From an uncultured Draconibacterium sp. (GTDB lineage Bacteria > Bacteroidota > Bacteroidia > Bacteroidales > Prolixibacteraceae): a stretch of DNA of 64,000 bases. Positions 2,145 to 35,314 of the stretch are shown here, in pieces. Where the stretch lies: the NCBI RefSeq assembly GCF_963675585.1, contig NZ_OY776414.1, positions 3,885,001 through 3,949,000 of the forward strand. Reading direction: 5' to 3'. Position 1 is the stretch's first letter; each line of letters starts with the position of its first letter. Below the pieces are notes generated by a model that saw only the letters and a list, made by a program, of their open reading frames with translations, ran no database searches and had not been told where the DNA came from. Both the position numbers and the translations under genes were made by a program.

Positions 2145-3089
2145 TTAATTGCAGGTGCAAACGATTCTTTCCTGAAGACTTTGCGTAAGATTTATTTCAT
2201 TTAAGCGGCGTTTCCTTGCATCAAAACAAGTGTTGCAGGTCGAGAAGTTTTCCAAATCCCATAGGTCGGCAAAAACGCGCCCGGCAGTTAAATTAATCCC
2301 GTAGTCCAAAACATCTTCGAGCATTTTTAGGCTTGGAAGTGTTAACTGCCCCTGTTCCTGCAAAAAATCGGTGGATCCGTTTCCTGTACGAAGTGGAATA
2401 ACAATAACACACTCAACACCCGATTCAAAAGCAAAATCAATTGACTTTTTTGCCCACTCCTCGCTTTCTTCGGGCGATAAAAAAGGCAAGGAAAGTAAAA
2501 CAAAGGCACGCGATTGAATTTTATTCCGATGAAGAAAATCAATGCCATTTCGAAAGTCATCCAGTGTCATTCGTTTATTTAGCATTGGCAGAATTTTCGG
2601 GTGCGCTGTCTCCAAACCAACTGCTACCTGTAATTCAGCATCCAGCATTTCATTAAACTCCAAAACTCTTTCATCGATAAATTTGGTATGACTTTCAACA
2701 ATTACGGTTTCAAACGATTTTAAATGTGCCGCTATTTTGGGATAATCTTTTCGCGGAATGGCGCCCCCATCGAAAAAGCTACCACTGTTGTACAATTTTA
2801 TGTGTTTAACCGGCGGCATTCTTTCCAAAGCCCATTCAATTTGTGCAGGAATAGCTCCCGGCGGAACCGGTTCGTCGCTTGTGTTTTTCCACAAATCGCA
2901 CATCAGGCAATGAAACGGGCACTCCTTATTGGTAAGGAAAATGGTGCCCGTATTTTCAATTTTGCCTGTTAATGTTCTTTCCGGTTCAATTTCCCAGCCA
3001 TAGGGCTTGTACCAGTCAACTTTGTTTTTGGATCCCCGCTTGTCGAGTATCCACTTGTCGTTAAAATGCGCTGGTAGTTTACTGTTCAT
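2145..3089 (-). CDS. Radical SAM protein
   Basis: A 314-aa radical SAM enzyme. The cluster motif CX3CX2C is at about residues 57-64 (CPFHCLMC), near the N-terminus as usual. A TIM-barrel-like core with conserved ETAHPKILPMLNKR and VIVIPLRTGNGS segments follows. The C-terminus carries extra cysteines (CNTC, then CTCN as the last residues) that could hold an auxiliary cluster; that is inference. The ATG at 3089 is preferred to an in-frame start at 3170 because it leaves an 11-nt overlap with the upstream asparagine-synthetase-like gene, a translational-coupling arrangement, and the extra 27 residues look unlike a folded start. Substrate unknown. It is the last gene of the minus-strand block. 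Coupling to an amide-forming enzyme suggests a modified peptide or amino acid product. Confidence 0.8.
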   Translation of the reverse strand: MNSKLPAHFNDKWILDKRGSKNKVDWYKPYGWEIEPERTLTGKIENTGTIFLTNKECPFHCLMCDLWKNTSDEPVPPGAIPAQIEWALERMPPVKHIKLYNSGSFFDGGAIPRKDYPKIAAHLKSFETVIVESHTKFIDERVLEFNEMLDAELQVAVGLETAHPKILPMLNKRMTLDDFRNGIDFLHRNKIQSRAFVLLSLPFLSPEESEEWAKKSIDFAFESGVECVIVIPLRTGNGSTDFLQEQGQLTLPSLKMLEDVLDYGINLTAGRVFADLWDLENFSTCNTCFDARKRRLNEINLTQSLQERIVCTCN

Positions 3090-4410
3090 ATTTCGAAAGG
3101 AATACTTTTCGGTAGTCCATTTCTTTATCCGGGAAATGCTTTTTAAAATCGGTTTTGCTGGCTGCACCATGCTGGAAACGTCGTTTTTCGAAAACAGGCA
3201 TATCCATGCCGGTAACTGCTTTTACACCATGTGCAACAATTTGTCCTTTTAAATCATACAGTTTCTGATGATCCCAATCGGTTAAATCAATAAACGGAAT
3301 TCCTTCTGAAATTTCGATAACATTGGGCAGTGTATACGGGCTGAAACCCTCGAAATCCAATACATCGCCAGTTGCATAGGTACGCATATAACCACGGCTT
3401 AATCCACCCGAATACGTAAGCGAATGTTTGATCGAATGCACACCCCAACCTTCGTGATACAACATCAGGTTATTCAACACACTTCGAATGGTCAACTCCG
3501 GATTTTCTTCAATCGGATAATCCTTTAAGTTTTCATCGCCACCGTCGCCGTCCAGTATGTATTTCCACTCCGGATAACGCGAACGAATGCCTCTCATCAG
3601 CGCTAAATTCATGGTTGCCGATTCAATATCCAGTGGTTTGTAGTCTTCAACAATGTTTACTGCTTCCTGCCAGTTTAATGCAGTGTAATCAAGTTCAATC
3701 GGCTCCAAAAACAAATCAAGATCGAGGGCTTCCAAAAACTTACGGGCTTGCATTAAATCGGCACCATCACCATCAATGGAAAGTGTAAATGCTTTTAAAC
3801 GCGAAGGACTTTCGCCCAATTCTTTCAATGCATGATACGTAAGAAGAAAAACAGAACCACTGTCGATCCCGGCAGAAAAAGTAACTCCAATAGGGCCGGT
3901 TTTTGCGCGGTTTTGCAACCATTTTTTTATTTCGTTGTACACGGCTCCAATGTATGCCTCGCCAATTTGTTCAACAGTGCTGTTTTTGTATTTGTTGCGC
4001 TGTGGTGTAAAAAAGCGGTCGTACACCGGACTTGGATCGGGACAACCCAGCAACTCTATTTTGGTGATGTAGTGCGCCGGTGCCATGCGTGTATACGAAG
4101 GATGAAACTGGTCATCCATACCTTCTTCTTTCAGGTAATCAAAAATAGTATCGATACGTTCAGCAATAATCAACTGCGGCCCAATCGGACGTTTGGCTAT
4201 AAAATACCTCAACGGACGCCCGATGGAACGTGCCAGGCGAATCGACTTTCCTTCAACCGAAACGATCGCAAATTGCCCGTCAATATTCCGGATTCCTTCT
4301 AAATCTCCATCTTTTACCAACTGAACTGCCTCTTCATAACTCATGTTATAAATGATATTTTTTTCTTTATCAGTCAGATCAATTACTTTGCTTATGTATT
4401 GAAATTCCAT
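3079..4410 (-). CDS. Asparagine synthetase-like amidotransferase lacking the glutaminase cysteine
   Basis: A 443-aa protein with the AsnB C-terminal ATP-pyrophosphatase domain: the PP-loop variant SAGIDSG is at residues 179-185, with DGDGGDEN further on. The N-terminal ~125 residues resemble a degenerate Ntn-glutaminase half (GQFAIVS, RSIGRPLRYF), but the sequence starts MEFQ, with no Cys at position 2, so it should not hydrolyse glutamine. It is shorter than ordinary AsnB (~550-620 aa). Family members without the cysteine include beta-lactam synthetase and lasso-peptide cyclases, which adenylate a carboxylate and close an amide. The gene overlaps the radical SAM gene by 11 nt and follows the 4431-6089 ASPIC gene by 20 nt. 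An ammonia-dependent asparagine synthetase is possible but less likely in this setting. Confidence 0.8.
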   Translation of the reverse strand: MEFQYISKVIDLTDKEKNIIYNMSYEEAVQLVKDGDLEGIRNIDGQFAIVSVEGKSIRLARSIGRPLRYFIAKRPIGPQLIIAERIDTIFDYLKEEGMDDQFHPSYTRMAPAHYITKIELLGCPDPSPVYDRFFTPQRNKYKNSTVEQIGEAYIGAVYNEIKKWLQNRAKTGPIGVTFSAGIDSGSVFLLTYHALKELGESPSRLKAFTLSIDGDGADLMQARKFLEALDLDLFLEPIELDYTALNWQEAVNIVEDYKPLDIESATMNLALMRGIRSRYPEWKYILDGDGGDENLKDYPIEENPELTIRSVLNNLMLYHEGWGVHSIKHSLTYSGGLSRGYMRTYATGDVLDFEGFSPYTLPNVIEISEGIPFIDLTDWDHQKLYDLKGQIVAHGVKAVTGMDMPVFEKRRFQHGAASKTDFKKHFPDKEMDYRKVFLSKYEQ

Positions 4411-4430
4411 ACTATATTATGTTTTAAATA

Positions 4431-6089
4431 TTACTTTTTTGTAATTCCTTTTCCCTGTTTCAGGATTTGGTATTTATCTGTAACTAAATTTTTAAACACT
4501 TCGGTTTTACCATCCGACCACTTCACTTCCAGCTCATTCACCTTGTTAACATTTCCTAGTCCAATGTGAATTCGAGGATCGCTGTTCGAAAGGTAAGCAT
4601 TGGTCCACTGGTTGATAAATACTCGATCTTTGCCACCAACTGTTAACGAAACCCGGGCAGCAATCGCCGACGCCGGGCCGTTTTCGCCTACCAGTTTTAA
4701 TCCCAGCCAGTGGTTATTATTTGTGCCATTGTTTTTCATTAAAGCCGGTTCTCCTTTTAAATCAACATGAGAAATAAGAATATCCATATTTCCATCATTG
4801 TCGTAATCAAGAACAACCAGTCCCCGGCCCGATCGTTTGGTAGTAAAATACGAACCGTTTTCTTTTCCAACGTCTTTAAATCGGCCGGTTCCATCATTTT
4901 CGAGTAATACCGGATATTGCAAAATCAGTTCTTCTGCGGTACCATTTGCCGAAACAATGTCCAAATCGCCGTCGTTATCAAAATCAACAAAAGCTGTTCC
5001 CCAACTTCCTTTCCCTGAAAAGGAGGCAGCAACACCGCTCACTTCGGTAACATCCTCATAAAATCCATTTCCAAGATTCCGGTATAAAGCACCGTATTTT
5101 AAATCGCCCACCAAAATATCCAGATCGCCGTCGTTATCAATGTCACCAATGGTTCCGTGCATCGAACCGGTTGGCTGGCCATGACTGTTTACTGCCACTC
5201 CCCGCTCAATTCCTATTTCGCGGTAGTTGCCATTTTCATTGCTGAACAAGAAATTTTTCTGATGATCGTTGGCTTGAAGAATGTCCATATCGCCGTCGTT
5301 ATCAAAATCGTAAACCGTAAGTCCCATACATTTTGAATCGGGATAAAACAGTTTGTTTTTGGCACTTACATCCTTAAAACTACCATCGGCTTGCTGCTCG
5401 TATAACATGGATGCCTGCCCTTTGTATTCCGAAGGATGCGGCATCATCCCGGGAGTTTGTGTTGAAATGTATTCAGGATCGAAAGCCAAAAAATTACCAA
5501 CCATGGCATCCAAACGGTTGTCGTTGTTATAATCCCAGAACGAAACTCCAATGCTCCATTTTGTAAACCCGTTCAACTCAGCTGGGCCTTCCAAACCCAA
5601 TTTGCCTGTAATATCGGTAAAAGTGCCGTCGCCGTTGTTGTGGTAGAAAATATTTGGTCCGTAATTCAGCAAAAACAAATCATCAAAACCATCTTTGTCA
5701 ATGTCGATTGCACCGGCGGCCATGCTCCAGTGCCGATCGTCAACACCTGCTTTTACCGCCATTTCGGTAAAAGTGCCGTCGCCATTGTTTTTATACAATT
5801 CGTTGGGTGTGTTACTAAATTCCTTGCCGTCTTCCGTTGAAATACCGTCCAGATAGGTTCCATTCATCAGGTAAATATCCATCAATCCATCGTTGTTAAA
5901 ATCAAAAACAGTAATTCCGGAGCCACTACTTTCAACTATATTTACATAGGTGTGGTCTCCAAAATTGTACACAAAATCAATTCCTGCACTTTTTGTAACA
6001 TCTGTAAAAACTTCGGATTTTTTTTGTGCAAAAATCAATGTTGGGGAGAAAATCAAAAACAGGATAAAAAAGAACTTACTTTTTTTCAT
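4431..6089 (-). CDS. CRTAC1-type secreted protein (FG-GAP repeats, C-terminal ASPIC/UnbV)
   Basis: A 552-aa exported protein. The ATG at 6089 gives a standard signal peptide (MKKSKFFFILFLIF, cleavage after FAQ); the in-frame ATG at 6104 adds five uninformative residues. About seven FG-GAP/VCBS repeats with calcium loops follow (VFDFNNDGLMDIYLMNG, AIDIDKDGFDDLFLLN, VYDFDNDGDMDILQAN, FVDFDNDGDLDIVSAN). The ASPIC/UnbV domain closes the protein (NHWLGLKLVGENG, then DPRIHIGLGNVNKVNELEVKW). This is the short CRTAC1 architecture, seen again at 16754-18445. It overlaps the upstream TPR/ASPIC gene by 14 nt, so the two are probably translated together. Predicted periplasmic or surface beta-propeller with unknown ligand. 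Confidence 0.87.
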   Translation of the reverse strand: MKKSKFFFILFLIFSPTLIFAQKKSEVFTDVTKSAGIDFVYNFGDHTYVNIVESSGSGITVFDFNNDGLMDIYLMNGTYLDGISTEDGKEFSNTPNELYKNNGDGTFTEMAVKAGVDDRHWSMAAGAIDIDKDGFDDLFLLNYGPNIFYHNNGDGTFTDITGKLGLEGPAELNGFTKWSIGVSFWDYNNDNRLDAMVGNFLAFDPEYISTQTPGMMPHPSEYKGQASMLYEQQADGSFKDVSAKNKLFYPDSKCMGLTVYDFDNDGDMDILQANDHQKNFLFSNENGNYREIGIERGVAVNSHGQPTGSMHGTIGDIDNDGDLDILVGDLKYGALYRNLGNGFYEDVTEVSGVAASFSGKGSWGTAFVDFDNDGDLDIVSANGTAEELILQYPVLLENDGTGRFKDVGKENGSYFTTKRSGRGLVVLDYDNDGNMDILISHVDLKGEPALMKNNGTNNNHWLGLKLVGENGPASAIAARVSLTVGGKDRVFINQWTNAYLSNSDPRIHIGLGNVNKVNELEVKWSDGKTEVFKNLVTDKYQILKQGKGITKK

Positions 6090-9000
6090 TGCTGTACACT
6101 TCATCTTTAATAAAATTGCGGTAGTTTTCGGTTGTAACTACTCTGTTGTTGTATTTACTGTGGTATTGTTTTAAGTCTTCATCATCCGGATAAACGTCTT
6201 CCGCCAGTGGCGGATAATTTTTCATTCCGTGATAGGGCAAAGGTTCCACCTGGTTTCCAAAAGCTGTATTTAAATCGCCGTCTTTTACCCAACCTACACT
6301 ATGAATAAAGAAATCGCGGGTCCAGCCTTCGGGCAATTCAGGCAAATCACCTGCATTAAATTCGATGGAAGTTTCATCTCCGGCATTGGAAATTATGTAT
6401 TGATTATCCGACGCAAGCAACAAAGGCAGCACATCGCCGTAACGTGTGTAATTTCCGGTAAGATCAACCCATTTTGTATTTGTGTCCACATCGTAATAGT
6501 CGAACCAGTGCGGCCCGTAACGACCTCCCTTTCGGTACGAACGCGAAAATCCGCGGTAGTGAATATCGGCCGAAACAGGATCGAGGATGGTTGTGGTAAC
6601 CGGAATATCGTTGCTTACATTTGAGAAGAAAATATAATCCCAGTAAATTTCCATATTGGTTAAAATCCGCACCCGGTGATCGGCACTTAAAAATTTATCA
6701 GACAGATCAATAATTACAGTTTTGTCTTTCCCCATAGGGAAGCCCACATTTTTTAGTACAGTTTGCCATTCTCCTTTCGAATTTACAACCTGAATAACAG
6801 GCGAAACAACCTCAATGGCATTTGATTGCGACAAAGCCGCGTTGATACTGGCATCGGTAGGAAATATCCAGCCTTTTAAAAACAGGTGTAACTTATTTGT
6901 ACTTGTATTCTTTTCCGGGCTGAGTGTAAGAGTATGCATTTCGGTTAATCCCTGGTATTTATCTGAGTTAAATCCTGCCAGATAATTGTCATCCTCTTTT
7001 TCGATAAACGAAAGAACATCGTTTCCGTCCTGATCGATTGCACATACAGGTAATTTTTTCTCGGAAACGGTGTACAGTTTGTAACCGGGAAATGGTGGCG
7101 GGCCAAATTGTTCAGGTACAAAAACATCGGTATTTGCAGGATGATCGGCAACAGCCAAACGTACCCGGTCCATATAAATGGTTTCCCACAATTCGGAGGT
7201 GATCCGGATGGAATATTTGCCCTCTTTCTCTTTTAGAAATTTACCCGGTATTTTAATGTAATCATCCGATGCATCGGCAAAAGCATAAGCTGTATTTTCT
7301 CCCATAATTCCGAGAGGCATCCCCAGCGCACTTCTCCATGTAATGTCTTTTACCAGTTGGTATTCATTTCCGTTCCAGGCATATACAAACGGACACGATC
7401 CTTTTAATGTCTGCGCCTCAATGAGCGCCTGATCTACGCCGGGTCGGAATATATTTTGCGGCACACCGTTGGTCCAAGTTATACGAATGATATCGGCATT
7501 TTTTCGGTGTCCCAATCCAAAATGTACACCGGGACTGGTTACTACCTGAGTTTGGTATAAATCGCCGCTTCGCATTTCTACCTTCGCACCAATTCCAAAA
7601 TGATTATTTTTGGCGCTACCGGTGCGTAAACCCACCAGTTTCATGTCCACATAATGATTGATGTTTCCACCGTCGTTACGCAACAGTAGCAGACCTCCGT
7701 TTACACCGGCAAGTAAAATATCAATGTCGCCATCGTCGTTGTAATCAAACAGTTCAATCTGCCGTGCCGATTTTACATTTTCAGGAAGTAGATGCGATAC
7801 GTCAGCGAATTCACCCGGAGCTTCATTGTGGTACAAAAACAAACCCCGAGCGCCTTCAACTGTTGAATTTCCGGCAATTATTATATCCTGGTATCCATCG
7901 TTATCAAAATCAAAAAACCGAACATCGGTGGTTTTTACTTTTGCGAGCGAGCCAAACATTTTTGACACCCCTTTTAAAGCGCCAAACTGTGCATTCCCGT
8001 GGTTTTGAAAGATGGCAATTTCCCCCGGAGTTTCGGAAGTAACAAAGAAATCGAGAAAACCATCGTTATTTATATCGGCCACATCAATGGCAGTGCCGGG
8101 AATGGCTTCAGACAAACCACATTCTTCGGAAACATTTTTGAAAATTCCCTGCCGCTGATTCGAAAACAGAAAAGTCCCGCTTGCTCCGGTAAGCAACAAA
8201 TCAATATCATCGTCGTCATCGAAATCGCCAAAAGCAGCATCTTTAAAAGGCTCATCAGAAGGAATTCCGGTTTTTTCAATCAGATCGGTAAAAGTGCCGT
8301 CCATATTGTTTCGGAAGAGCTGATTGCCGGTTTTGTTCATCTGAAATAAATCCAGGTCGCCGTCGTGGTCGTAATCAAAAAACAAAGCTTTGGCTCCACC
8401 TGTGCGATTGCCAATACCTGAATTTTCGCTTACATTTTTAAACATCCCCTGATCTGCATTTCGGTACAAAATATCACCCTTTTCATTCAGAATGTATAAA
8501 TCCAGAAAACCATCGTTGTCGTAGTCAATAAAAGTTGCAGCCGCCTCATTTCCGGTATGATCCATTCCAACATTTGCGGCCACATCGGTAAAGCGCCCCA
8601 TCTCGTTATTGTATAAATGATGCTTAAACGAGCTGCTTGCCTCATCGTAGCCTGCGGTGTAAATATCAATGTCGCCATCGCCATCGTAGTCGGCAACTTC
8701 CACATGACTTAAAACACCATTTTGGCTTGCATTTGTTTCAGAAACAAGCGGCAGATTTATCCCTGCCGAAGCACTTACTTCTTTAAATACAATTACATCG
8801 AGGTACGATTTTGCTTCCACATCCTGCACAATCAAATCCTTGTTGTACTCGATCAGCGGAAAGCCAATTAAATTACCTCCCGGCCCTTTTAACTCCATTA
8901 TTCCGGCCTGGTAGGGCGAAGTAACTTTTAGGTAATTGTGAAAAATAGTAAACTGTATTTTGGCATTTTGAATGTCTCCTTTTCGTAAATAATCCAACGT

Positions 9001-9648
9001 AGCCGTATAATAATCGCGGGCTTCAATCGGAAATTCGGGAAACTCTTTTGCAATTTTTTCCAACCTTGCCAACGTACTGTCAGCCTGATTCTCCTTTAAA
9101 CCAATTTCGGTTAAACTTAACTGTGGAACTAAATTACCGGGAACTATTGCAGCCAGATTTGTGATACAGGCTTTTCTGTTTGCCTGCGACTCTGCATCAT
9201 TTGCCACTGAATACAATTCGGAAAGCATGTACAATACTTTTGCATGATTGGGCGCGTTTTTCAAGGCATCGTTTAAAACAGCAATGGCTTTTTCGCGATG
9301 GTTATCCATTTCGTAAATCGTAGCCAGAATAAGCTGTATATCTGCATCTTCAGCATCAATCTCCAGCGCGTGCTGAATTTGCTCTTCTGCCTCCGGATAT
9401 TTTCCCATACGCAAATAAGTAATACCAAGGTTGGCATATCCCAGGCGGTCTTCAGGAGCCAGTTTTACATATTTCAGAAACTCAGTTTCGGCCTCTTCCA
9501 GTTTAAACTCTTCCAGATAGGCAATTCCCATTGTTTGAGCCGTCATTAACTCAACAGCATCTTGTTTTTCTTTTTCGGCAGACGATTGACAGCCTGCTAA
9601 AAACACGAAAAACAGACCAAAAAGTAAAAAATAGTTTTGTTTAGTCAT
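6076..9648 (-). CDS. TPR-FG-GAP-ASPIC multidomain lipoprotein
   Basis: An 1190-aa lipoprotein. The ATG at 9648 gives a short leader and lipobox (FLAGC); a start at 9678 would bury it. Residues ~25-260 are TPR repeats (LGYANLGITYLRMGKYPEAEE, AKVLYMLSELYSVAND). Residues ~300-650 hold FG-GAP calcium repeats (VADYDGDGDIDIYTAG, FFDYDHDGDLDLFQMN). The ASPIC/UnbV domain is at ~660-735 (GVHFGLGHRKNADIIRITW). A further ~450 residues match no domain I recognise; they contain aromatic-rich segments such as GRYGPHWFDYYDVD. This is the largest protein of the block and the only ASPIC member with an N-terminal scaffold. It overlaps the downstream ASPIC gene and lies 38 nt after a binding-protein gene. A scaffold role on the membrane is inference. 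Confidence 0.85.
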   Translation of the reverse strand: MTKQNYFLLFGLFFVFLAGCQSSAEKEKQDAVELMTAQTMGIAYLEEFKLEEAETEFLKYVKLAPEDRLGYANLGITYLRMGKYPEAEEQIQHALEIDAEDADIQLILATIYEMDNHREKAIAVLNDALKNAPNHAKVLYMLSELYSVANDAESQANRKACITNLAAIVPGNLVPQLSLTEIGLKENQADSTLARLEKIAKEFPEFPIEARDYYTATLDYLRKGDIQNAKIQFTIFHNYLKVTSPYQAGIMELKGPGGNLIGFPLIEYNKDLIVQDVEAKSYLDVIVFKEVSASAGINLPLVSETNASQNGVLSHVEVADYDGDGDIDIYTAGYDEASSSFKHHLYNNEMGRFTDVAANVGMDHTGNEAAATFIDYDNDGFLDLYILNEKGDILYRNADQGMFKNVSENSGIGNRTGGAKALFFDYDHDGDLDLFQMNKTGNQLFRNNMDGTFTDLIEKTGIPSDEPFKDAAFGDFDDDDDIDLLLTGASGTFLFSNQRQGIFKNVSEECGLSEAIPGTAIDVADINNDGFLDFFVTSETPGEIAIFQNHGNAQFGALKGVSKMFGSLAKVKTTDVRFFDFDNDGYQDIIIAGNSTVEGARGLFLYHNEAPGEFADVSHLLPENVKSARQIELFDYNDDGDIDILLAGVNGGLLLLRNDGGNINHYVDMKLVGLRTGSAKNNHFGIGAKVEMRSGDLYQTQVVTSPGVHFGLGHRKNADIIRITWTNGVPQNIFRPGVDQALIEAQTLKGSCPFVYAWNGNEYQLVKDITWRSALGMPLGIMGENTAYAFADASDDYIKIPGKFLKEKEGKYSIRITSELWETIYMDRVRLAVADHPANTDVFVPEQFGPPPFPGYKLYTVSEKKLPVCAIDQDGNDVLSFIEKEDDNYLAGFNSDKYQGLTEMHTLTLSPEKNTSTNKLHLFLKGWIFPTDASINAALSQSNAIEVVSPVIQVVNSKGEWQTVLKNVGFPMGKDKTVIIDLSDKFLSADHRVRILTNMEIYWDYIFFSNVSNDIPVTTTILDPVSADIHYRGFSRSYRKGGRYGPHWFDYYDVDTNTKWVDLTGNYTRYGDVLPLLLASDNQYIISNAGDETSIEFNAGDLPELPEGWTRDFFIHSVGWVKDGDLNTAFGNQVEPLPYHGMKNYPPLAEDVYPDDEDLKQYHSKYNNRVVTTENYRNFIKDEVYSNEKK

Positions 9649-9686
9649 GATGTCAAATTTACAAGAAAATCGGAACATTTAAGGAT

Positions 9687-10793
9687 TTAATTGCCCGCAG
9701 CATGCGGAATTCCGTTCTTTATTTCTACCAGTTGAACCTCTTTTTTCAGATTGCCTAAATTGTCGAATTCAATCTTTCCGGTAATTCCCTGATAACTAGC
9801 AGATCGAAGCCGGCTCTTAAATAATTCACGATCAAAACCCGATTTATTAATTTCTGCAAGAACAAAATGTGTAGCATCGTAGGCATAAGCAGCCGTTGCT
9901 CCCGGCAGTGTACCGTATTTCTTTTTAAATTTTTCGGAAAACAATTTCCCTTTTTCGCTGGTCCAGTAAACCGCGTCAATACCAATTACATCATCCAGGT
10001 TTTGCAGCTTAAATTCTTCGGTTAACGATTCTCCTGTTATTAGCCACGATCCATAAATTCTTATTTTTTCTACTTTCGCCAACTGTATAATTTTTGAAGC
10101 CCAGGCGGCGTCTCCAAACAATACAATTGCTTCCGTTTGCTGTTCCCGAAATCTACTTTTTAACGCATCGAGATTGGAATCTGAAGAGTAAACAAATTTA
10201 GCCGGCAAGTGAAACCCTTGTTCTTTCACTTCAGCTTCGAAGAATTTGGCGCCCGTTTCGGCATCGTAATCCGCATTGGAAATTACCAGCACGTTTGAAA
10301 AGTTACCGGTTTTATACATGTGTGTACAAAGTGCCTTTGCCTGCTGGATATTATTGGGAACGAGGCTAAAAAACCAGGGCACATAAGCTTGCGACAAAGT
10401 TGGGTCGGCAGCCCACGCAGAGACATAAACCACCTGCGTTTTGGCAATAACCTGTTCAGCCAAATGTGCATTTCTTCCATCGTGGCTCCCGATTATTGCA
10501 TACACCTGCTCGTTAAAAACCAAATCAACCGTTTGTTTTGCACCGGTTCCCCAGGGCCCTTCCATCGAACGGTTTACCAGCTTAAATTTTTTGTTTGATT
10601 GCGATTCTGAATTTGCTTCGTTGATTGCCAATTCGGCTGCCTGCCTCGCTTCCTTATAAGTACTGTCCGAAATTAGCAGTCCGACTTTGATTGTATCGGC
10701 CAAACCGGTAGTTGTTTGTGCACAGCCATATTCCGACTTTAAGAAAAGAAAACCAAGCAACCCAATCAAAACAATTATCTGCCGTCTGCACAT
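9687..10793 (-). CDS. Leu/Ile/Val-type periplasmic binding protein (Peripla_BP_6)
   Basis: A 368-aa exported protein with the type I periplasmic-binding fold of branched-chain amino acid receptors: DTIKVGLLISDSTYKEARQA opens the first lobe, VYAIIGSHDGRNAHLAEQVI is the ligand-contact region, and GITGKIEFDNLGN is the family's C-terminal signature. The ATG at 10793 (MCRRQIIVLIGLLGF) gives a plausible hydrophobic leader ending near GCAQ; an earlier in-frame start at 10817 adds only eight residues. No ABC permease or ATPase gene occurs anywhere in the block, so it is an orphan receptor or scavenging protein here. It is paired with the related 10847-12160 gene, 53 nt away. Confidence 0.85.
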   Translation of the reverse strand: MCRRQIIVLIGLLGFLFLKSEYGCAQTTTGLADTIKVGLLISDSTYKEARQAAELAINEANSESQSNKKFKLVNRSMEGPWGTGAKQTVDLVFNEQVYAIIGSHDGRNAHLAEQVIAKTQVVYVSAWAADPTLSQAYVPWFFSLVPNNIQQAKALCTHMYKTGNFSNVLVISNADYDAETGAKFFEAEVKEQGFHLPAKFVYSSDSNLDALKSRFREQQTEAIVLFGDAAWASKIIQLAKVEKIRIYGSWLITGESLTEEFKLQNLDDVIGIDAVYWTSEKGKLFSEKFKKKYGTLPGATAAYAYDATHFVLAEINKSGFDRELFKSRLRSASYQGITGKIEFDNLGNLKKEVQLVEIKNGIPHAAGN

Positions 10794-10846
10794 TTCTCCA
10801 ACTTTACAAATCCTCAATCAAAAAAAACAGAAATAAAAGCCGCACT

Positions 10847-12160: not shown

Positions 12161-12183
12161 TGTATTGCGTTTTTTCGTTTGCG

Positions 12184-15339: not shown

Positions 15340-15354
15340 CGTATTCCTCCTCAA

Positions 15355-16752: not shown

Positions 16753-16753
16753 T

Positions 16754-20928: not shown

Positions 20929-20939
20929 CCCTTTACCCT

Positions 20940-27739: not shown

Positions 27740-29251
27740 TTAGTATCCAGGATTCTGCACTAAATTTGGATTCGATGCAATTTGTGATGACGAAAATGGG
27801 AACAATAAATATTTTGAGTCAGAAGCAGGTTTTTCTGCCCAGGCCTCCAAATATTTTCCGTAACGAATTAAATCGTTTCTTCTCCAGTTTTCATCGTATA
27901 GTTCACGTCCTCTTTCTTCAAGCAGAATGTCTAAACTAAGTGAACTTAGTTCAGATGCATTTCGGATTGAACGTAACTGATTTACGATAGTAAGAGCACT
28001 GGCGCTGTCACCATTCCGAAGCAAAGCTTCAGCTTTCATTAACAACACATCAGCATAACGTAAAAGTACAAGGTCATTTTCAGGTGAATCTACGTTACCG
28101 TAGTCAGGTGTATATTTCATAATACGAATACCACTTGTTTCCAATGTGGCTCCTCCGGAAATAATCGGACTTTCTTTTGTAAAAAACAAAGGATGACCGG
28201 CACGATCTTCAAGTGCAGTACCGTTTTCATCGTATTGCTGACCGTACAATAAACCGGCCTCAATACCTGAAGCAGCTTTTACTGCTGCCACTTCGCCATG
28301 ACGACGAATATCACCTTCTTCAAAAGAATCGTAAAAATCAGCCAAAGTGGTAAATCCATTCCATCCACTGGGTTTCTGGTTGTAGTGCAAAGTAGAGTAA
28401 TAACGTCCCTGAACACCACCGGATTGAATACCACGTGTATTCCGTGACGAAAAGATGATTTCTTTTGAGCCCTCATTATCGGCACTGAAGTTCATATAAA
28501 AGTCGCTTTCCAAAGCATAATCGCCGGTATTGATAATGGCATCGCAATTGGCAATTACACTGGTCATATTTTCAGAACTGATGGTAAAACTTTGGCGATC
28601 GCTGGAAAATACATCTTTATTGATGTAAGCTTTTGCCAATAGTGCGTGTGCCGCACTTTGTGTAGCTACCCAATGGTCCGACGTTTCCGGAAGATTACTC
28701 ATGATCGACTCTAATTCACTGATGATAAAATCCACAGCTTCACCGCCCGACATTACATACGGGTCTTCAGATAACGCTGATCCGGGATCACGCATAGGAA
28801 CCTGTCCCCAACCGTCGGCAATCCAGAACACATAAAGAGCGCGAATGAAACGAGCTTCAGCTTGCTGCTGCGAATTTGCGTCGTACTGCAATAAATCGAT
28901 TGCTGAAAACAATCCAGAAGTATAAGCCTGGTAACGATTACCAATTCCTGAATGCTCAGGATCCCATTTGTGCTGGTGCAATGCACGCCAGGCACCATTA
29001 TCATCCCAGTCACCACCGCGGGTAGGTGCCATTAAAATATCTGTAGTATGTTCAAATACTTTATCTGCTCCCGAACCATCAATACCACTTAAGGTTTTAT
29101 ACAGTTCGGCCAATAAATCAGAAACATTCGCTGCTGTTACCTGATCCTTTGTTAAACGATCTTCGAGGGTTTCATCCAAATCAGTACAACCTGTGATGCC
29201 CAATCCTGTAATCGCAATAAATACTGCTAAAAATTTCAATATATTTTTCAT
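27740..29251 (-). CDS. susD-like: SusD/RagB family outer-membrane lipoprotein
   Basis: A 503-aa surface lipoprotein (leader MKNILKFLAVFIAITGLG, lipobox ITGC) with the SusD-family layout. The N-terminal TPR-like part includes FIRALYVFWIADGWGQVPM, and the C-terminal RagB/SusD domain includes RYADVLLMKAEALLRNGDSA and ERGRELYDENWRRNDLIRYG. SusD proteins form the lid over the SusC transporter and bind the incoming ligand. It follows susC by 21 nt in the usual order. The family mostly handles glycans, but some pairs take up peptides or other polymers; with no carbohydrate-active enzyme in this block, the ligand class is open. Confidence 0.95.
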   Translation of the reverse strand: MKNILKFLAVFIAITGLGITGCTDLDETLEDRLTKDQVTAANVSDLLAELYKTLSGIDGSGADKVFEHTTDILMAPTRGGDWDDNGAWRALHQHKWDPEHSGIGNRYQAYTSGLFSAIDLLQYDANSQQQAEARFIRALYVFWIADGWGQVPMRDPGSALSEDPYVMSGGEAVDFIISELESIMSNLPETSDHWVATQSAAHALLAKAYINKDVFSSDRQSFTISSENMTSVIANCDAIINTGDYALESDFYMNFSADNEGSKEIIFSSRNTRGIQSGGVQGRYYSTLHYNQKPSGWNGFTTLADFYDSFEEGDIRRHGEVAAVKAASGIEAGLLYGQQYDENGTALEDRAGHPLFFTKESPIISGGATLETSGIRIMKYTPDYGNVDSPENDLVLLRYADVLLMKAEALLRNGDSASALTIVNQLRSIRNASELSSLSLDILLEERGRELYDENWRRNDLIRYGKYLEAWAEKPASDSKYLLFPFSSSQIASNPNLVQNPGY

Positions 29252-29272
29252 GATTGTCTAATTCTTATTTTA

Positions 29273-32188
29273 TTAAAATGAAACATTCAGACCAAAAGTG
29301 AAAGTTCTTGAATTTGGATAAGGAACATAGTCAATACCAAATGAAGGAACACCGTCAACTGCCTTGTTTACATTCACTTCAGGATCAAATCCGGTGTAGT
29401 TTGTAATCAGGAACAAGTTTTGACCGGTTACTGAAAAACGAGCACTTTCGAATACCCAAGGAGCATCTTTAAAAGTATACCCAACTGTAAGGTTATTTAA
29501 ACGAAGGAAATCTCCGTCTTCCAAATAGCGTGTTGATGCAGAAATTGCATTGTCTGAACTTTCACCATCGAGTACATAGATTGGAGATGTGTTCCGTCCT
29601 TTTGTTGGGTTACTTGCAACAAGTATAGAAGTTGCAGTGTTGTTGTAAACCTGGTGTCCAAATGCGCCGTTAAAGTTGGCAACCATGTCCCAGTTTTTAT
29701 AACGCAAACTGGCTGACACACCCAGAATCTGATTTGGATTCGGATCTCCAACATACTGTTTTCCGTCGGCATACTTACTTATTCCGTTTTCGTCAAGACC
29801 TTCGAAAACAAGCAGGTAGAATACATTTAAAGGTTGTCCTTCAACAAAACGCTGACTGGTTACACCCGACATTCCCTGTCCGTGCAAACCTCCGGTTTCA
29901 ACAATACGACTAAAGTTTTGAAGTTCGTTTTTAAGGAAACTGATGTTTGCACTTAAATCGAATGAAAAATCTCTTGTCTCAACAATTCGTCCGCTTAATG
30001 ATATCTCCACACCACTGTTTAATACTTCCGCATCGAGGTTGGTCCAAACTTTACCCGACGATGGTGATGGATAAGCAGCTTCAGCATAGAATAATAAGTC
30101 TTGCGTACGTTTGCTAAAGTATTCAACCGAACCAGACAATTTTGAGTCGAACAGGGTAAAATCAACACCAATATTATAAGTGGTTGATGTTTCCCATTTC
30201 AAATCAGGATTATCAAATTGAGAACGGGTTAAACCGTCGCGGGTAATGCTATACTGAGCCTGTGAGGCACCTGCCGGAAATTCCTGGTTACCGGTTTGTC
30301 CCCATCCCAAACGAACTTTTAAATCGTCGAAAACTTCAGGTACAAACGACTCTTCAGAGATGCGGTATGCAAGAGCTGCAGAAGGGAAGTAACCAAATTT
30401 ATTGTTGGTACCGAATTTACTTGAACCATCGGCACGCATTGTTGCAGTTACCAGGAACTTATCGTACAAACTAAAGTTTACCCTTCCAAAATACGATTGT
30501 AATTCGCTTGTAGGATCGTAGTAAGAGTAAATATCTCTGGTATCCTGAGAAATAGCCTGTAGCTGATTCAGATAATCTACTTCATCGTAGGTAAAATTCT
30601 CTCCGTAAATACCTTTTCCCCAACGGTTGCTTACCTGGTAAGAATAACCTGCCATGGCATCAAACCTAAAGTTTTCGTTGAAAAGCTTGTTGTAATTTAA
30701 GGTATGTTCCATCAATTTACTTTCGGTATACAAGTCGGTTACACTAGCAGTACCTTTTTCGTAAATTCCGGAATAAAATAAATCTTTCGAGATAGAAGTA
30801 CCACGTGTAGATCTAGACATATCCCAACCTAAATTCAGTTTGTAAGTTAAGTCAGAAGTAATTTTTAATGATGCTGACATGTTTGATAAAACACGTAAAG
30901 TACTTGCGTTATCGTTAATCAAATCTAACATGGCCAGCGGGTTAGAAAGGTCTAAACTTGGCTGGTTGTAAGTTCCGTCAGGATTAATTAATACATCAGT
31001 TGGATTCCATGCCAATGCATTACTCATTAAACTTCCGGTATAACCTGCATCGTTCGAAATAGGTGCATACTCATCGTTTACCTGCGACGTAATCATATTC
31101 ACATCTACAACCAAACGTTTTTCAAAAAAGTCCTGCGATGCAGTTAAATTGGCAGTATATTTTTTCAAACCAGTATTTTCAATCACACCTTGCTGGTCTT
31201 GAGTACTTAATGACAAACGATATTTCATATCCTGGTTACCACCGGTAAATGCGACGTTATGATTTTGTGAAAATGCAGTTCTGAATATTTCGTCCATCGC
31301 ATTAACATCTCCACCATTGTTCATTGCCGGAGAAATTGCAGCAAATTCGCTTGCCGAATAAACAGGAATTAAGTTAGCAGCACGTGCAGCACTAAATGAT
31401 GCATTGTATTCAACGTGGTTTTTACCGGAGGTTCCTTTTTTTGTTGTAATAATAATTACACCATTTGCACCACGCGAACCATAAATTGCTGTTGCCGAAG
31501 CGTCTTTCAAAATATCCATTGAAGCAATATCGCTCGGATTGATAAAGTTTAGCGGGTTACGTGCATCGGTGGTTCCGATACCAACATTCGCGCTTGCAGT
31601 TGTGTTACCTCCCGAAAGTGGTACTCCATCAACCACAATTAAAGGATCGTTACCTGAACGTACCGACGAGTTACCCCTGATACGAATGGAAGAACTAGCT
31701 CCGGGGTCACCACTTGAGTTGGTAATCATTACACCCGATACTTTTCCTTGTATCAAATCACTTGGAGAGCTGCTAACTCCCCGGTTGAAGTCTTCTGTTT
31801 TTACCGAACTAACTGCTCCGGTGGCATCTTTCTTTTTAACAGATCCATAACCAACCACAACAACCTCGTCCAACGACTCTGTACTTACTGCCAGCTCAAC
31901 ATTAACTGTACCTGCTGCAGTAATCATTTTTTCTACATTGGTATATCCAATGTACGAAAACAATAAACTCGATCCCGGAGTTACACCTAAAGTATACTCT
32001 CCGTCAAAGTTAGTGACTGTTCCTGTAGTTGTTCCTACTACAATAATTGAAACACCAGGCAATGGTTCCTGTGTATCACTGTCAACAACTTTACCTGTCA
32101 CCGATACTTCCTGGGCAAAAGCAGTGGTGATCATAAAGAATGCGGAAAAAATAAATAACACCGCAATTTTCAGATGATTATTCTTCAT
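29273..32188 (-). CDS. susC-like: SusC/RagA TonB-dependent outer-membrane transporter
   Basis: A 971-aa TonB-dependent transporter with a signal peptide ending AFAQ. The N-terminal carboxypeptidase-D-like domain is at residues ~27-110 (VTGKVVDSDTQEPLPGVSII, GEYTLGV). LDEVVVVGYGSVKKKDATGA precedes the plug (IRGNSSVRSGNDPLIVVDGV, SATAIYGSRGANGVIIITTK). The beta-barrel ends in RTFTFGLNVSF, with the terminal Phe expected for an outer-membrane barrel. It is the first gene of the minus-strand block, facing the divergent hybrid sensor across 324 nt, so it is the likely direct target of that regulator. I see no perfect TAnnTTTG box upstream; TATCATTTG on the minus strand near 32282-32290 is the closest. 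Confidence 0.96.
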   Translation of the reverse strand: MKNNHLKIAVLFIFSAFFMITTAFAQEVSVTGKVVDSDTQEPLPGVSIIVVGTTTGTVTNFDGEYTLGVTPGSSLLFSYIGYTNVEKMITAAGTVNVELAVSTESLDEVVVVGYGSVKKKDATGAVSSVKTEDFNRGVSSSPSDLIQGKVSGVMITNSSGDPGASSSIRIRGNSSVRSGNDPLIVVDGVPLSGGNTTASANVGIGTTDARNPLNFINPSDIASMDILKDASATAIYGSRGANGVIIITTKKGTSGKNHVEYNASFSAARAANLIPVYSASEFAAISPAMNNGGDVNAMDEIFRTAFSQNHNVAFTGGNQDMKYRLSLSTQDQQGVIENTGLKKYTANLTASQDFFEKRLVVDVNMITSQVNDEYAPISNDAGYTGSLMSNALAWNPTDVLINPDGTYNQPSLDLSNPLAMLDLINDNASTLRVLSNMSASLKITSDLTYKLNLGWDMSRSTRGTSISKDLFYSGIYEKGTASVTDLYTESKLMEHTLNYNKLFNENFRFDAMAGYSYQVSNRWGKGIYGENFTYDEVDYLNQLQAISQDTRDIYSYYDPTSELQSYFGRVNFSLYDKFLVTATMRADGSSKFGTNNKFGYFPSAALAYRISEESFVPEVFDDLKVRLGWGQTGNQEFPAGASQAQYSITRDGLTRSQFDNPDLKWETSTTYNIGVDFTLFDSKLSGSVEYFSKRTQDLLFYAEAAYPSPSSGKVWTNLDAEVLNSGVEISLSGRIVETRDFSFDLSANISFLKNELQNFSRIVETGGLHGQGMSGVTSQRFVEGQPLNVFYLLVFEGLDENGISKYADGKQYVGDPNPNQILGVSASLRYKNWDMVANFNGAFGHQVYNNTATSILVASNPTKGRNTSPIYVLDGESSDNAISASTRYLEDGDFLRLNNLTVGYTFKDAPWVFESARFSVTGQNLFLITNYTGFDPEVNVNKAVDGVPSFGIDYVPYPNSRTFTFGLNVSF

Positions 32189-32512: not shown

Positions 32513-35314
32513 TTGAAAAGGCATTTTCTCCTGATACTCATGTTCGGACTAATTCTTTTGGGTTTTTATTCAAATGCTGCTTCACAATATAAAATAGGAT
32601 TTTCTCAATGTACCACTTCCGATCTTTGGCGGCAAACACAGTTAAGACTGATGGAAATTGAGGTGTCGTTTTATCCGAATATGGAGTTGGTGGTAAAAGA
32701 TGCCAAAGACGATACACAAACACAAATTAAACAAATAGAAGAATTAGTAAAAGAAGGTATCGATCTTTTGATTGTTTCCCCAAACGAATCAGAACCCCTT
32801 TCGCCGATAGTTGAAAAAGTATTTCAATCAGGAATACCCGTAATTGTAATCGACCGGAATGTGGATACCGACCAATACTCTGCCTTTATTGGAGGCGATA
32901 ATTTTGTTATTGGTATTGAAGCTGCCAATTATGTGGTTAAATTATTGCACGGAAAAGGGAAGGTACTGGAAATAAAAGGCCTTGAAGGATCGTCTCCGGC
33001 ACAGGATCGCCACGATGGATTTGTGAGCGTATTGAATACCTACCCTGAAATAGAAATTGTTCAATCGGTTTCGGGCGACTGGAAAAAGGAAAGCGCCAAA
33101 CGAATTGTGAGCGAAGCCATTTCGAACAATGTGGACTTTGATGTAGTTTTTGCACACAACGACGTGATGGCGAAAGAAGTATACAACATTACTCAAATGC
33201 ACCGAAACACACGCGATGTTTTTATATTGGGTGTTGATGGATTACCCGGTACAGAAGGTGGAATTCAGATGGTTATCGACAATATTATCGATGCTACTTT
33301 TATGTACCAAACCGGTGGAGGATTGGCCATTCAAACTGCCTACGACTTGTTAAATAAAAACAGAGTTTCCAAAGAAAATATAATCCCATCGATAACCATC
33401 AACAAAGACAATGCACCTACAATAAAAGCGCAAAGCGACCAAATTGAGATTCTGCACAACAAAATTGAACGACAAAAATTATTGTTAACCATTGAAACAA
33501 ACCGCAATAAAATACAACGATTAATACTCTTTCTTTTACTTATCGGAATTCTACTCATTGCGGTAGTTGTTATTTTGATAAACATCAACCTTAAGAGTAA
33601 AAAGAAAGCAAATAAACTCTTGATCGAAAAAAACAATGAAATTGAAAATCAGAACGAACTTCTAAAAAAACAACACGACCAACTTGTACAAATCGACAAG
33701 GAACTACAGGAAGCAACACAAACAAAACTTACCTTTTTTACAAACATATCGCACGAATTTAAAACGCCGTTAACACTTATTAAAGGGCCACTTGAAAATT
33801 TAATGGAAGACAAAGTGCCGGCAGACGATGTACCTAAAATGTACAGAATAATGTATCGAAACACGGAGCGTCTGCTGCAAATGATTCATCAGTTAATGGA
33901 TTTCAGAAAACTTGAAAACAAAAAGATGAAGATTAAAACTTCCGAAAATGTTTTAAAAGATTTTATTTCCGACGTTTTTGATTCTTTTAAATTTATAACT
34001 GAAGATAAAAAAATAAAACTAACACTCGAAAACCAGATCAATTCAACAAAGGTTTGGTTTGATTGCGACAAAATAGAAAAGGTACTGTTTAATGTACTGT
34101 CGAATTCAATAAAATTTACGCCAGAAAATGGTCAGATTGCCATAAAAGTTAGTAAACAAAAAGTACACAATCCAGGCCTCTTTTCAGAAGAAGTTTGTAT
34201 TAAAATTTCGGACAATGGAAGTGGAATACCGGCCAACATTTTACCGAATATTTTTGACCGATTTTACCACAGCAAAGAATCGAGAGTGATTAAAGGAACC
34301 GGCATTGGCTTAAATTTTTCGAAACAGCTGATTGAATTGCACAGGGGCCGCATAGAAATTAAAAGTACCGAAGGAAACGGCACCAAAGTTTATGTTTTTC
34401 TTCCCATTGGCAACCTGCATTTGCTGGATGAAGAAATGGTTTCGGAGAAAAGCTGCGACCGCCTGCGCACTCCTTCTGCCGATATTCTCCACTCTGAACA
34501 GTTTGAAGCAAAAAACGGGCATATTGAAATTAAAGGAAACAACAATTCATTACCAACCATTTTAATTGTTGAAGACATGCCTGATGTGCTGGACTTTGTA
34601 AAAACAAGTTTGGGCCACGATTACACCATTGTAACCGCTTCGAATGGAAAAGAAGGGATTCAGAAAGTGTTACACGACGAGCCCGACCTTATAATCAGTG
34701 ATGTAATGATGCCAATTATGGATGGTTTTGAAATGACTCGCAGATTAAAATCGGGGACAGAAACCAGTCACATTCCAATCATACTTTTATCGGCAAAAAC
34801 TTCTGCTGCCGACAAAATTGAAGGCTACGAGGGTGGAGCAGACAATTATGTTGAAAAACCATTTAACAGTTCGGTTTTAAAGTCGCGGGTTGATAATTTA
34901 CTGAAATCGCGCAAACAGTTAAGAGAGCATTATTTGAATACGCTGGAATTTAACGGTAACTCAGGCGACCTGAACCAGCTTGACAAAAAATTCCTTGATA
35001 AACTTCGAAAGATAATTCTCGACAATATTGGCAAACAAGAATTAAGCATTGATGAACTGGCCGGCAAATTAGGCATTTCGAGAGTTCACCTTTACCGTAA
35101 AGTTAAAAAGTTAACCGATATGTCGGTTAGCGAATTTGTAATCTCGGTGAAGCTAAAAAGTTCATTGGAACTTCTTCGTACAAGCGGCAAAACCATCACC
35201 GAAATTGCTTACGAATCCGGATTTTCATCGCAATCGTATTACACACGTTGTTTTAAAGACCAGTTTAAAATTTCGCCAAGCGATTATATAAAACAAACAC
35301 GCGAAAAAATTTAG
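32513..35314 (+). CDS. Hybrid two-component system regulator (sugar-binding-type sensor, kinase, receiver, AraC)
   Basis: A 933-aa one-protein phosphorelay. Starting from TTG, a leader (MKRHFLLILMFGLILLGFYS) is followed by a Peripla_BP_4 sensor (residues ~27-310; YKIGFSQCTTSDLWRQTQ, VDRNVDTDQYSAFIGGDNF). A transmembrane helix (~336-358) leads to HisKA with H414 (ISHEFKTPLTLIKG) and HATPase (DNGSGIPANILPNIFDRFYH, GTGIGLNFSKQLIELHRG). A receiver (phospho-acceptor D730 in IISDVMMP) and a C-terminal AraC helix-turn-helix (~830-930) complete it. Relatives with this sensor fold bind monosaccharides such as fructose or related small ligands and switch on the adjacent SusCD operon. It is divergent from susC, so it probably activates the 2145-32188 block. 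The signal peptide in frame supports the unusual TTG start. Confidence 0.95.
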   Translation: MKRHFLLILMFGLILLGFYSNAASQYKIGFSQCTTSDLWRQTQLRLMEIEVSFYPNMELVVKDAKDDTQTQIKQIEELVKEGIDLLIVSPNESEPLSPIVEKVFQSGIPVIVIDRNVDTDQYSAFIGGDNFVIGIEAANYVVKLLHGKGKVLEIKGLEGSSPAQDRHDGFVSVLNTYPEIEIVQSVSGDWKKESAKRIVSEAISNNVDFDVVFAHNDVMAKEVYNITQMHRNTRDVFILGVDGLPGTEGGIQMVIDNIIDATFMYQTGGGLAIQTAYDLLNKNRVSKENIIPSITINKDNAPTIKAQSDQIEILHNKIERQKLLLTIETNRNKIQRLILFLLLIGILLIAVVVILININLKSKKKANKLLIEKNNEIENQNELLKKQHDQLVQIDKELQEATQTKLTFFTNISHEFKTPLTLIKGPLENLMEDKVPADDVPKMYRIMYRNTERLLQMIHQLMDFRKLENKKMKIKTSENVLKDFISDVFDSFKFITEDKKIKLTLENQINSTKVWFDCDKIEKVLFNVLSNSIKFTPENGQIAIKVSKQKVHNPGLFSEEVCIKISDNGSGIPANILPNIFDRFYHSKESRVIKGTGIGLNFSKQLIELHRGRIEIKSTEGNGTKVYVFLPIGNLHLLDEEMVSEKSCDRLRTPSADILHSEQFEAKNGHIEIKGNNNSLPTILIVEDMPDVLDFVKTSLGHDYTIVTASNGKEGIQKVLHDEPDLIISDVMMPIMDGFEMTRRLKSGTETSHIPIILLSAKTSAADKIEGYEGGADNYVEKPFNSSVLKSRVDNLLKSRKQLREHYLNTLEFNGNSGDLNQLDKKFLDKLRKIILDNIGKQELSIDELAGKLGISRVHLYRKVKKLTDMSVSEFVISVKLKSSLELLRTSGKTITEIAYESGFSSQSYYTRCFKDQFKISPSDYIKQTREKI

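Follow-up and report, generated by a model that had tools for sequence, protein, structure and literature searches.

A hydrazine synthase-like heme pair in a conserved gene set of Bacteroidota, adjoining a SusCD-ASPIC-haloperoxidase module

Introduction

The closest described relatives of the gene pair reported here are the hydrazine synthase of anammox bacteria (PDB 5c2v/5c2w) and the homologues grouped as clades I-III by Hagglund et al. 2025 (PMC12758564). According to the accessible text of that paper, key residues are not kept in clades I-III, a gap is found at the heme ligand alpha-Tyr591, and tryptophan stands at the place of gamma-His144 as in cytochrome c peroxidase and MauG; a proposal of function for the clade III homologues was not found in this text. 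The conserved gene set described below gives partners to the non-anammox relatives of hydrazine synthase, an enzyme whose origin is unsettled. We analysed a 64,000-nucleotide stretch, hereafter the window, of contig NZ_OY776414.1 (positions 3,885,001 to 3,949,000) from an uncultured Draconibacterium sp., in which a block of genes at 2145-35314 contains such a pair. The block consists of two neighbouring, separately conserved modules, A (18632-32188 together with a sensor gene) and B (2145-18478). We tentatively propose that the heme pair centres the conserved, operon-like module B, and that the heme complex may oxidise, outside the cytoplasm, a small molecule made or modified by the cell itself. 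Module A encodes a relative of PDB 4cit/4usz, which the accessible part of PMC5064120 gives as the vanadium iodoperoxidase of Zobellia galactanivorans.

Homology of the heme pair to hydrazine synthase

The 679-aa protein that had been read from the sequence as a MauG-like propeller matched the NCBIfam model of the hydrazine synthase beta-gamma fusion (NF052342) with E 5.7e-67 and 226 bits, far under the curated cut-off of 1250. Its best PDB match was 5c2v chain B (7e-44), and chain C was matched as well (3.7e-15). The 470-aa neighbour matched the NCBIfam alpha model NF052339 (E 3.7e-19, 68.1 bits, cut-off 800) and, above the cut-off of 26.6, the Pfam family PF18582 (HZS_alpha, 54.5 bits), and 5c2v chain A (3e-12) was its sole PDB match at E ≤ 0.01. 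Since the NCBIfam, Pfam and PDB matches come from adjacent genes, the pair is homologous to hydrazine synthase alpha and beta-gamma, and the alpha, beta and gamma homologues are co-located as in hydrazine synthase. Thus, the two c-heme propellers of the sequence-only reading are indeed heme proteins, but instead of being independent they constitute one alpha/beta-gamma pair.

Counted on the 5c2v alignment, Trp493 of the window's beta-gamma protein occupies the position of gamma-His144, a residue at the active heme of hydrazine synthase, and tryptophan was found there in 39/39 aligned beta-gamma homologues, the window's included. Because tryptophan replaces this histidine, hydrazine synthesis by the window pair is unlikely. 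At or next to gamma-Cys165, which provides a third covalent heme bond in hydrazine synthase and where the alignment is gapped, the residue was aspartate in 33/39 proteins (Asp504 in the window) and cysteine in 6/39. Cysteine was seen there in four Balneolaceae (L068, L069, L073 and L079) in which the alpha CxxCH is lost, and also in two Cyclobacteriaceae (L066 and L077), of which L077 keeps the alpha heme motif. Three CxxCH motifs were present in 39/39 beta-gamma proteins, and the window protein begins with a hydrophobic segment that we read as an anchor. The window alpha protein has a single CxxCH and stops 30 residues past this CVGCH (436-440 of 470), and therefore the alphaII heme domain is absent; its alignment to 5c2v chain A stops just short of the alpha-Tyr591 position.

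Features of MauG and diheme peroxidases were observed in the beta-gamma protein, namely the C-terminal CxxCH motifs at 451 and 576 together with Trp493. It passed PF03150 (CCP_MauG) with 31.6 bits against a cut-off of 25.6. The curated MauG family TIGR03791 was not reached (27.6 bits, cut-off 443.85), and the match of the C-terminus to TIGR04039 was weak (31 bits, far below its cut-off).

Conservation of module B

A genome collection was scanned with an alignment of three beta-gamma proteins and two short peptide patterns. The scan gave 43 loci: 42 clade-III-like loci, which are not a census, in 41 genomes of Bacteroidota (here in the GTDB sense, Balneolaceae included), and one distant match in Gemmatimonadetes with 29% identity. 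Many of the 41 genomes are metagenome-assembled genomes (MAGs) of unknown completeness, and the counts are non-independent, as G425 and G429 seem to duplicate G119 and G368 of the phylum sample used below, their match coordinates being identical, and G431 seems to duplicate G608.

With the loci that had enough contig as denominators, alpha lay upstream of beta-gamma in 39/39 loci and ASPIC3 upstream in 32/32, and the Reg_prop and PBPa genes were found downstream in 38/38 and 31/31, respectively (the ASPIC1/2/3/5/6 names in relatives are best-match labels only). The order ASPIC3-alpha-betagamma-Reg_prop-PBPa was fixed in the 42 loci as far as the contigs extend. Further downstream genes were PBPb (23/25 loci), the tetratricopeptide repeat (TPR)/ASPIC gene (19/24) and ASPIC5 (15/20). 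The four Balneolaceae named above carry PBPb and TPR/ASPIC on the upstream side, and this explains the two loci lacking a downstream PBPb and two of the five lacking a downstream TPR/ASPIC. Seven loci have genes for a response regulator and a histidine kinase ahead of the core, in the same orientation; the one pair checked, in L045, comprises an OmpR-type regulator and a HAMP kinase.

A RidA-family gene was present in 21/34 loci and a 3-deoxy-D-arabino-heptulosonate 7-phosphate (DAHP) synthase gene in 20/28; neither is part of the window operon. A search for RidA elsewhere in the genome, which had no positive control, found it in 0/14 genomes lacking an operon RidA (the window's and 13 others). 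The usual active-site residue of RidA is arginine; in 17 RidA-like open reading frames (ORFs), selected by the PASTGI motif itself, the serine of that motif seems to replace it. The RidA-like gene was considered as a chorismatase and set aside, the scores of 23 bits to FkbO/Hyg5 and 18.6 bits to its Pfam domain being a hint only.

The binding proteins gave UrtA/LivJ-like NCBIfam matches, and the best PDB matches of PBPa, the only one searched, are named branched-chain amino-acid binding proteins. The TPR/ASPIC protein carries a conserved 446-residue C-terminal region (6079-7416, minus strand) without a Pfam family; no fold match was found for this domain at E ≤ 0.001, the best being an APC10/Doc1-like jelly roll (E 5.2e-3). 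Lipoboxes or signal-peptide-like starts were read by eye in the ASPIC proteins.

The AsnB-like and radical SAM genes

An AsnB-like orthologue was detected in 35/41 module-B genomes at 58-88% identity (one a 78-residue fragment) vs 24/395 genomes of an even phylum sample (p 1e-29; the sets share at least two genomes). This bears out the earlier suggestion that extracytoplasmic heme proteins are linked to a cytoplasmic amide/radical SAM pair. Within the sample, all four genomes with a recognisable clade III core (G000, G119, G336 and G368) carried the AsnB-like gene compared to 20/391 others (Fisher p 1e-5); clade III presence was judged here by PF18582 matches and neighbourhoods, so that a heme-less alpha could be missed. 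Among 20 module-B genomes from which the AsnB region was fetched, 11 had the gene directly behind ASPIC5; other sites were before ASPIC3 (L140, L141), beside SusCD (L142, L146, L148), behind TPR/ASPIC (L145) and elsewhere (L147, L149, L150). AsnB-like and radical SAM genes formed a tight tandem in 35/40 loci. In L150, L151, L157 and L168 they are separated by an ORF of ~500 aa on the other strand, and in L144 the AsnB match stops at residue 393 with no radical SAM match after it.

A structure model of the AsnB-like protein, built from 39 sequences (pLDDT 83.7), was nearest to beta-lactam synthetase 1mc1 (E 1.4e-13, TM 0.61 by query length), with carbapenam synthetase also near and asparagine synthetases scoring nearly as well. 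The SxGIDSG and GDGGDEN-type stretches are invariant or nearly so. The N-terminal nucleophilic cysteine of AsnB glutamine amidotransferases was not seen: the window protein starts with MEFQY, none of the 39 sequences (with mechanically assigned starts) has Cys2, and the sole invariant cysteine is C123. As the fold is nearest to beta-lactam synthetase and no glutaminase cysteine was seen, the enzyme probably couples an acid with an amine and does not draw on glutamine. The radical SAM protein matched TIGR01210 (RaSEA) over residues 66-333 with 91.8 bits, under the cut-off of 212, and neither protein has a signal peptide by eye.

A flavin enzyme with a GESSTP motif adjoins the tandem in 16 of the 20 loci L151-L170, which come from the phylum sample, and a flavin enzyme is also next to it at two module-B loci of Balneolaceae. 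The one protein scanned was Trp_halogenase-like in Pfam (44.8 bits); the WxWxIP motif of such halogenases was found in 0/18 of these enzymes. Its candidacy as a member of the pathway considered here was rejected, as it occurs in only 3/42 genomes (the 41 module-B genomes and the window's), all Balneolaceae. The AsnB-radical SAM-flavin enzyme grouping seen among L151-L170, mostly in genomes without a recognisable heme pair, is possibly a separate, undescribed three-gene cassette.

Module A and its relation to module B

The vanadium-dependent haloperoxidase (VHPO) of module A scored 616 bits against PDB 4cit over residues 10-437. The stretches around TSGHS and SRMYGGIHYR are identical in the two proteins and KYxSxLIRP is near-identical. 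TSGHS, SRMYGGIH and KYxSxLIRP, which we take to be the conserved vanadate site of vanadium haloperoxidases, are thus common to both. VHPO relatives were found in 77/395 genomes of the phylum sample. In 20 VHPO neighbourhoods, hand-picked among the closer matches, an ASPIC protein was present in 16, a homologue of the 18632-19549 gene in 9, SusC in 7 and SusD in 6; the corresponding numbers in 18 control regions, taken 100 kb off in 18 of the same 20 VHPO genomes and not from module-B genomes, were 0, 0, 2 and 0. The presence of ASPIC in 16/20 neighbourhoods vs 0/18 controls identifies module A as a recurrent arrangement, and SusC-SusD-ASPIC-ASPIC-VHPO is a common surface locus of Bacteroidota. 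No paper describing it was found in the open-licence literature. An enediyne/iodination link between ASPIC (UnbV) and iodoperoxidase was dropped, as the literature search yielded nothing usable.

The sequence-only reading had treated the block as a single locus opening with susC/susD, in which a ligand sensed by the hybrid regulator is captured, oxidised outside the cell and linked to a cytoplasmic modification step. In such a pathway SusCD would capture the ligand, the haloperoxidase and the heme proteins would oxidise it, and after import the AsnB/radical SAM enzymes would modify it. The single locus gave way to two modules, and the pathway is one of several readings. The modules are contiguous in the window, and the parts are not a random assortment. 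The closest arrangement was seen in Draconibacterium L039, where ASPIC1-ASPIC2-unknown gene directly precedes the core, and in L050 an ASPIC2-VHPO pair lies before it (38-41% identity); L076 has a VHPO fragment. In the flanks of the core and the AsnB gene in 20 module-B genomes, ASPIC1/2/6-type genes were found in 13, SusC in 11 and both in 7; ASPIC1/2/6-type genes occurred in 3/20 AsnB loci of the phylum sample, for which one region was inspected instead of the two regions of up to ~22 kb per module-B genome. Thus, the link of module B to SusCD/ASPIC is recurrent but loose and imperfectly controlled. However, the haloperoxidase was present in 7/41 module-B genomes, a lower bound given that many are incomplete MAGs, vs 77/395 in the sample (Fisher p 0.84). 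The L039 genome has no haloperoxidase match, and PF18582 was matched in 0/20 genomes of the VHPO neighbourhood set, i.e. module A recurs without module B. As module-B genomes show no enrichment of the haloperoxidase, the link of this enzyme to module B, and with it a single pathway across both modules, is not supported, and we regard such a pathway as doubtful. Of the co-occurrence proposed earlier, the stretch from ASPIC3 to PBPa, usually on to the AsnB-like and radical SAM genes, recurs, whereas the haloperoxidase shows no enrichment with it.

Organisation of the window

The ORF list and Pfam reproduced the gene list, order, strand and coordinates of block 2145-35314 as first described, including its tight spacing and overlaps. 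Sixteen genes follow one another on the minus strand from susC, with which the block opens at 32188, to the radical SAM gene. According to lengths computed from mechanical gene starts, 13 of their 15 junctions are overlaps (5) or spacers of 0-41 bp (8), and the larger two measure 153 bp (18479-18631) and 229 bp (27511-27739). Pfam recognised SusC (TonB plug and barrel), SusD, five UnbV_ASPIC/FG-GAP proteins and the convergent sixth, PAP2, HZS_alpha, CCP_MauG with a Lactonase propeller, Reg_prop, two Peripla_BP_6 proteins, Asn_synthase and Radical_SAM. The hybrid sensor, divergent from susC, has Peripla_BP_4, HisKA, HATPase, REC and AraC domains. Six of the seven ASPIC domains of the 6.03 Mb genome sit inside the window, and therefore their clustering is not due to chance; the sixth ASPIC gene crosses the window edge, its whole frame being ~1,115 aa. 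In agreement with the earlier description, no glycoside hydrolase, lyase, sulfatase or protease model of Pfam matched the main ORFs of the block except for a weak Vgb_lyase propeller (20 bits, cut-off 50), and no carbohydrate-active enzyme above cut-off, as expected of a polysaccharide utilization locus (PUL), stands beside SusCD in 2145-35314. The label SRPBCC/GyrI-like for the 18632-19549 product was not upheld by Pfam or NCBIfam. The Bacteroidota promoter pattern gave two matches only, which is below chance expectation and uninformative.

Table 1. Genes of the block and the convergent ASPIC gene, in window coordinates.
Feature	Position	Strand	Module	Evidence and remarks
Radical SAM enzyme, distant RaSEA (archaeosine) type, CxxxCxxC	2145..3170	-	B	PF04055; TIGR01210 91.8 bits, curated cut-off 212; no signal peptide by eye
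AsnB-like/beta-lactam-synthetase-like amide synthetase, glutaminase cysteine not seen	3079..4410	-	B	PF00733; nearest fold 1mc1, E 1.4e-13
ASPIC5, ASPIC/FG-GAP propeller protein	4431..6104	-	B	PF07593, PF13517
TPR/ASPIC lipoprotein: TPR, FG-GAP, ASPIC and conserved uncharacterised C-terminal domain (residues 755-1200)	6076..9678	-	B	
PBPb, LivJ-type binding protein b, operon without permease	9687..10817	-	B	PF13458
PBPa, LivJ-type binding protein a	10847..12232	-	B	PF13458; best PDB matches branched-chain amino-acid binding proteins
Reg_prop propeller, signal-peptide-like start	12184..13290	-	B	PF07494
Hydrazine-synthase beta-gamma fusion homologue, CxxCH at 50, 451, 576	13315..15354	-	B	NF052342 E 5.7e-67; 5c2v chains B and C
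Hydrazine-synthase alpha homologue, lipobox, one CxxCH (436)	15355..16767	-	B	PF18582 54.5 bits; NF052339 68.1 bits; 5c2v_A
ASPIC3, ASPIC/FG-GAP lipoprotein, first gene of core	16754..18478	-	B	PF07593 82.8 bits
Family-less protein, hydrophobic N-terminus	18632..19549	-	A	no Pfam/NCBIfam match
VHPO lipoprotein	19591..20928	-	A	616 bits to 4cit over residues 10-437
ASPIC2, ASPIC/FG-GAP lipoprotein	20940..24233	-	A	Pfam
ASPIC1, ASPIC/FG-GAP lipoprotein	24190..27510	-	A	Pfam
SusD	27740..29251	-	A	PF07980, PF14322
SusC	29273..32188	-	A	TIGR04056 715.8 bits
Hybrid two-component sensor	32513..35314	+		divergent from susC; assigned as module A regulator by position
Sixth ASPIC protein, convergent	42..2123	+		N-terminus outside window

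Several neighbouring features were also observed. The 19 kb upstream of the window (L213) hold a sialic-acid-type PUL ending ~530 bp before the sixth ASPIC gene; translations read without a family search suggest SusCD, sialidase-like, GH20-like, NanA-like lyase, kelch, epimerase-like, transporter and esterase-like proteins. Next to the hybrid sensor, a Tll0287-like protein with a CLKCH motif is encoded at 35356-35973 (minus strand), directly adjoined by a histidine-kinase-like ORF (35991-37451; translation read only). A SAM riboswitch (71.8 bits) at 37759-37870 (plus strand) precedes an HcyBio homocysteine gene and a methionine-synthase-type gene.

Discussion

In the mechanism that we tentatively prefer, the one-heme lipoprotein alpha and the anchored three-heme beta-gamma protein would form a complex, as their homology and motifs suggest. 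Its gamma part may act as a diheme oxidase of the MauG/cytochrome c peroxidase type, because it has the tryptophan of those enzymes and not the histidine of hydrazine synthase. The ASPIC and Reg_prop propellers might build an assembly around the heme pair, to which the two LivJ-type binding proteins could hand a small amino-acid- or acid-like ligand. In the cytoplasm, the AsnB-like ligase and the RaSEA-like radical SAM enzyme may make or remodel this ligand, conceivably by forming an amide at the expense of ATP and then carrying out a radical step, and in many relatives the ligand might derive from a shikimate-pathway precursor, given the DAHP synthase and RidA-like genes. Export and lipid anchoring of the extracytoplasmic module B proteins are presumed from lipoboxes and signal-like starts. 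A more specific version, in which the heme complex would be the extracytoplasmic oxidase of an undescribed biosynthetic pathway in non-anammox Bacteroidota, with a small amide, shikimate-derived in many relatives, made by the ligase and the radical SAM enzyme, delivered by the orphan LivJ-type proteins and serving as a secreted redox cofactor or metallophore, appears rather unlikely.

A number of observations weigh against the proposed oxidation of a self-made molecule. Neither a permease nor an exporter is present in the window's operon. The aromatic (shikimate-precursor) idea cannot be general, since DAHP synthase and RidA are absent from the window operon and RidA was not found elsewhere in its genome. 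The alpha heme motif, kept in 33/37 aligned proteins, is lost from the four Balneolaceae L068, L069, L073 and L079, and L058, L065 and L077 have no TPR/ASPIC gene on the downstream side. The AsnB-like gene does not stand behind ASPIC5 in 9/20 module-B genomes, and the AsnB-radical SAM tandem occurs without a recognisable clade III heme pair in 20 of the 24 AsnB-carrying sample genomes, often with the flavin enzyme. Finally, module B is operon-like by gene order and spacing, and its co-transcription is only predicted.

Alternatively, the MauG-like beta-gamma protein, with or without the radical SAM and AsnB-like enzymes, could modify residues of the neighbouring ASPIC or TPR proteins, and there would be no small-molecule substrate. 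MauG and MbnH modify residues of partner proteins, and this analogy is consistent with the weak C-terminal matches to MauG/MbnH models, the constant adjacency of ASPIC3 (32/32) and the family-less 446-residue region of the TPR/ASPIC protein. However, the radical SAM and AsnB-like enzymes lack signal peptides by eye, whereas the ASPIC proteins have lipoboxes or signal-peptide-like starts, and the LivJ-type binding proteins are hard to accommodate, which leaves protein maturation with a small chance. That the complex makes an N-N bond or converts NO or hydroxylamine like hydrazine synthase is highly improbable: both proteins are hydrazine synthase homologues, 6/39 have cysteine at or near gamma-Cys165, and UrtA/LivJ-like binding proteins with an amide synthetase would suit a nitrogen theme, but tryptophan replaces gamma-His144 in 39/39, 33/39, the window's protein included, have aspartate at or close to gamma-Cys165, there is no alphaII heme, and the accessible text of Hagglund et al. 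(PMC12758564) reports the alpha-Tyr591 gap in clades I-III.

The oxidation of a self-made molecule by the heme complex, as we propose it, turns heme homologues of unassigned role into a testable pathway, and one carrier of the gene set is a culture-collection strain, Lutimonas halocynthiae CECT 8444 (L053). Among the best conserved members of the set is the AsnB-like protein, presumably a cytoplasmic amide synthetase, which is usually paired with the radical SAM enzyme. The set also offers a genome-based handle on ASPIC/UnbV proteins, which are found here beside both heme and vanadium oxidases.

Comparison with known systems

The window VHPO resembles the Zobellia galactanivorans vanadium iodoperoxidase (4cit/4usz) in the site stretches over residues 10-437 but differs in its setting next to SusCD and two ASPIC proteins, which is seen again in other genomes. 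The radical SAM enzyme shares the TIGR01210 region (residues 66-333) with RaSEA but scores below its curated cut-off; the partner of RaSEA is ArcS, whereas here it is the AsnB-like protein. The latter agrees with beta-lactam and carbapenam synthetases in its fold, the SxGIDSG and GDGGDEN-type stretches and the lack of an N-terminal cysteine; it differs from them in its length of 443 aa, a shortened N-terminal domain and the pairing with a radical SAM enzyme.

With anammox hydrazine synthase (5c2v/5c2w) the window shares alpha, beta and gamma homology across both genes, the alphaI CxxCH and both gamma CxxCH motifs. The gene order is different, however, the alphaII domain is absent, an extra N-terminal heme motif is present, and tryptophan replaces His144. 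The core agrees with clade III, as far as the accessible text of Hagglund et al. 2025 (PMC12758564) describes it: an FG-GAP/CRTAC1 gene upstream of alpha, alpha before the fused beta-gamma, an extra heme motif in beta-gamma, no alphaII heme, and two ABC substrate-binding genes downstream. The accessible main text of that paper does not contain the terms asparagine, phosphoheptulonate, RidA, tetratricopeptide, TonB, SusD or radical SAM, whereas the window set includes the AsnB-like and radical SAM genes. No open-licence literature was found on AsnB, radical SAM, RidA or DAHP synthase genes together with hydrazine synthase homologues. Thus, clade III as published already covers the heme pair together with the FG-GAP and substrate-binding genes; judging from the accessible text, what appears to be new is the larger set that adds the amide synthetase, radical SAM and shikimate-type genes.

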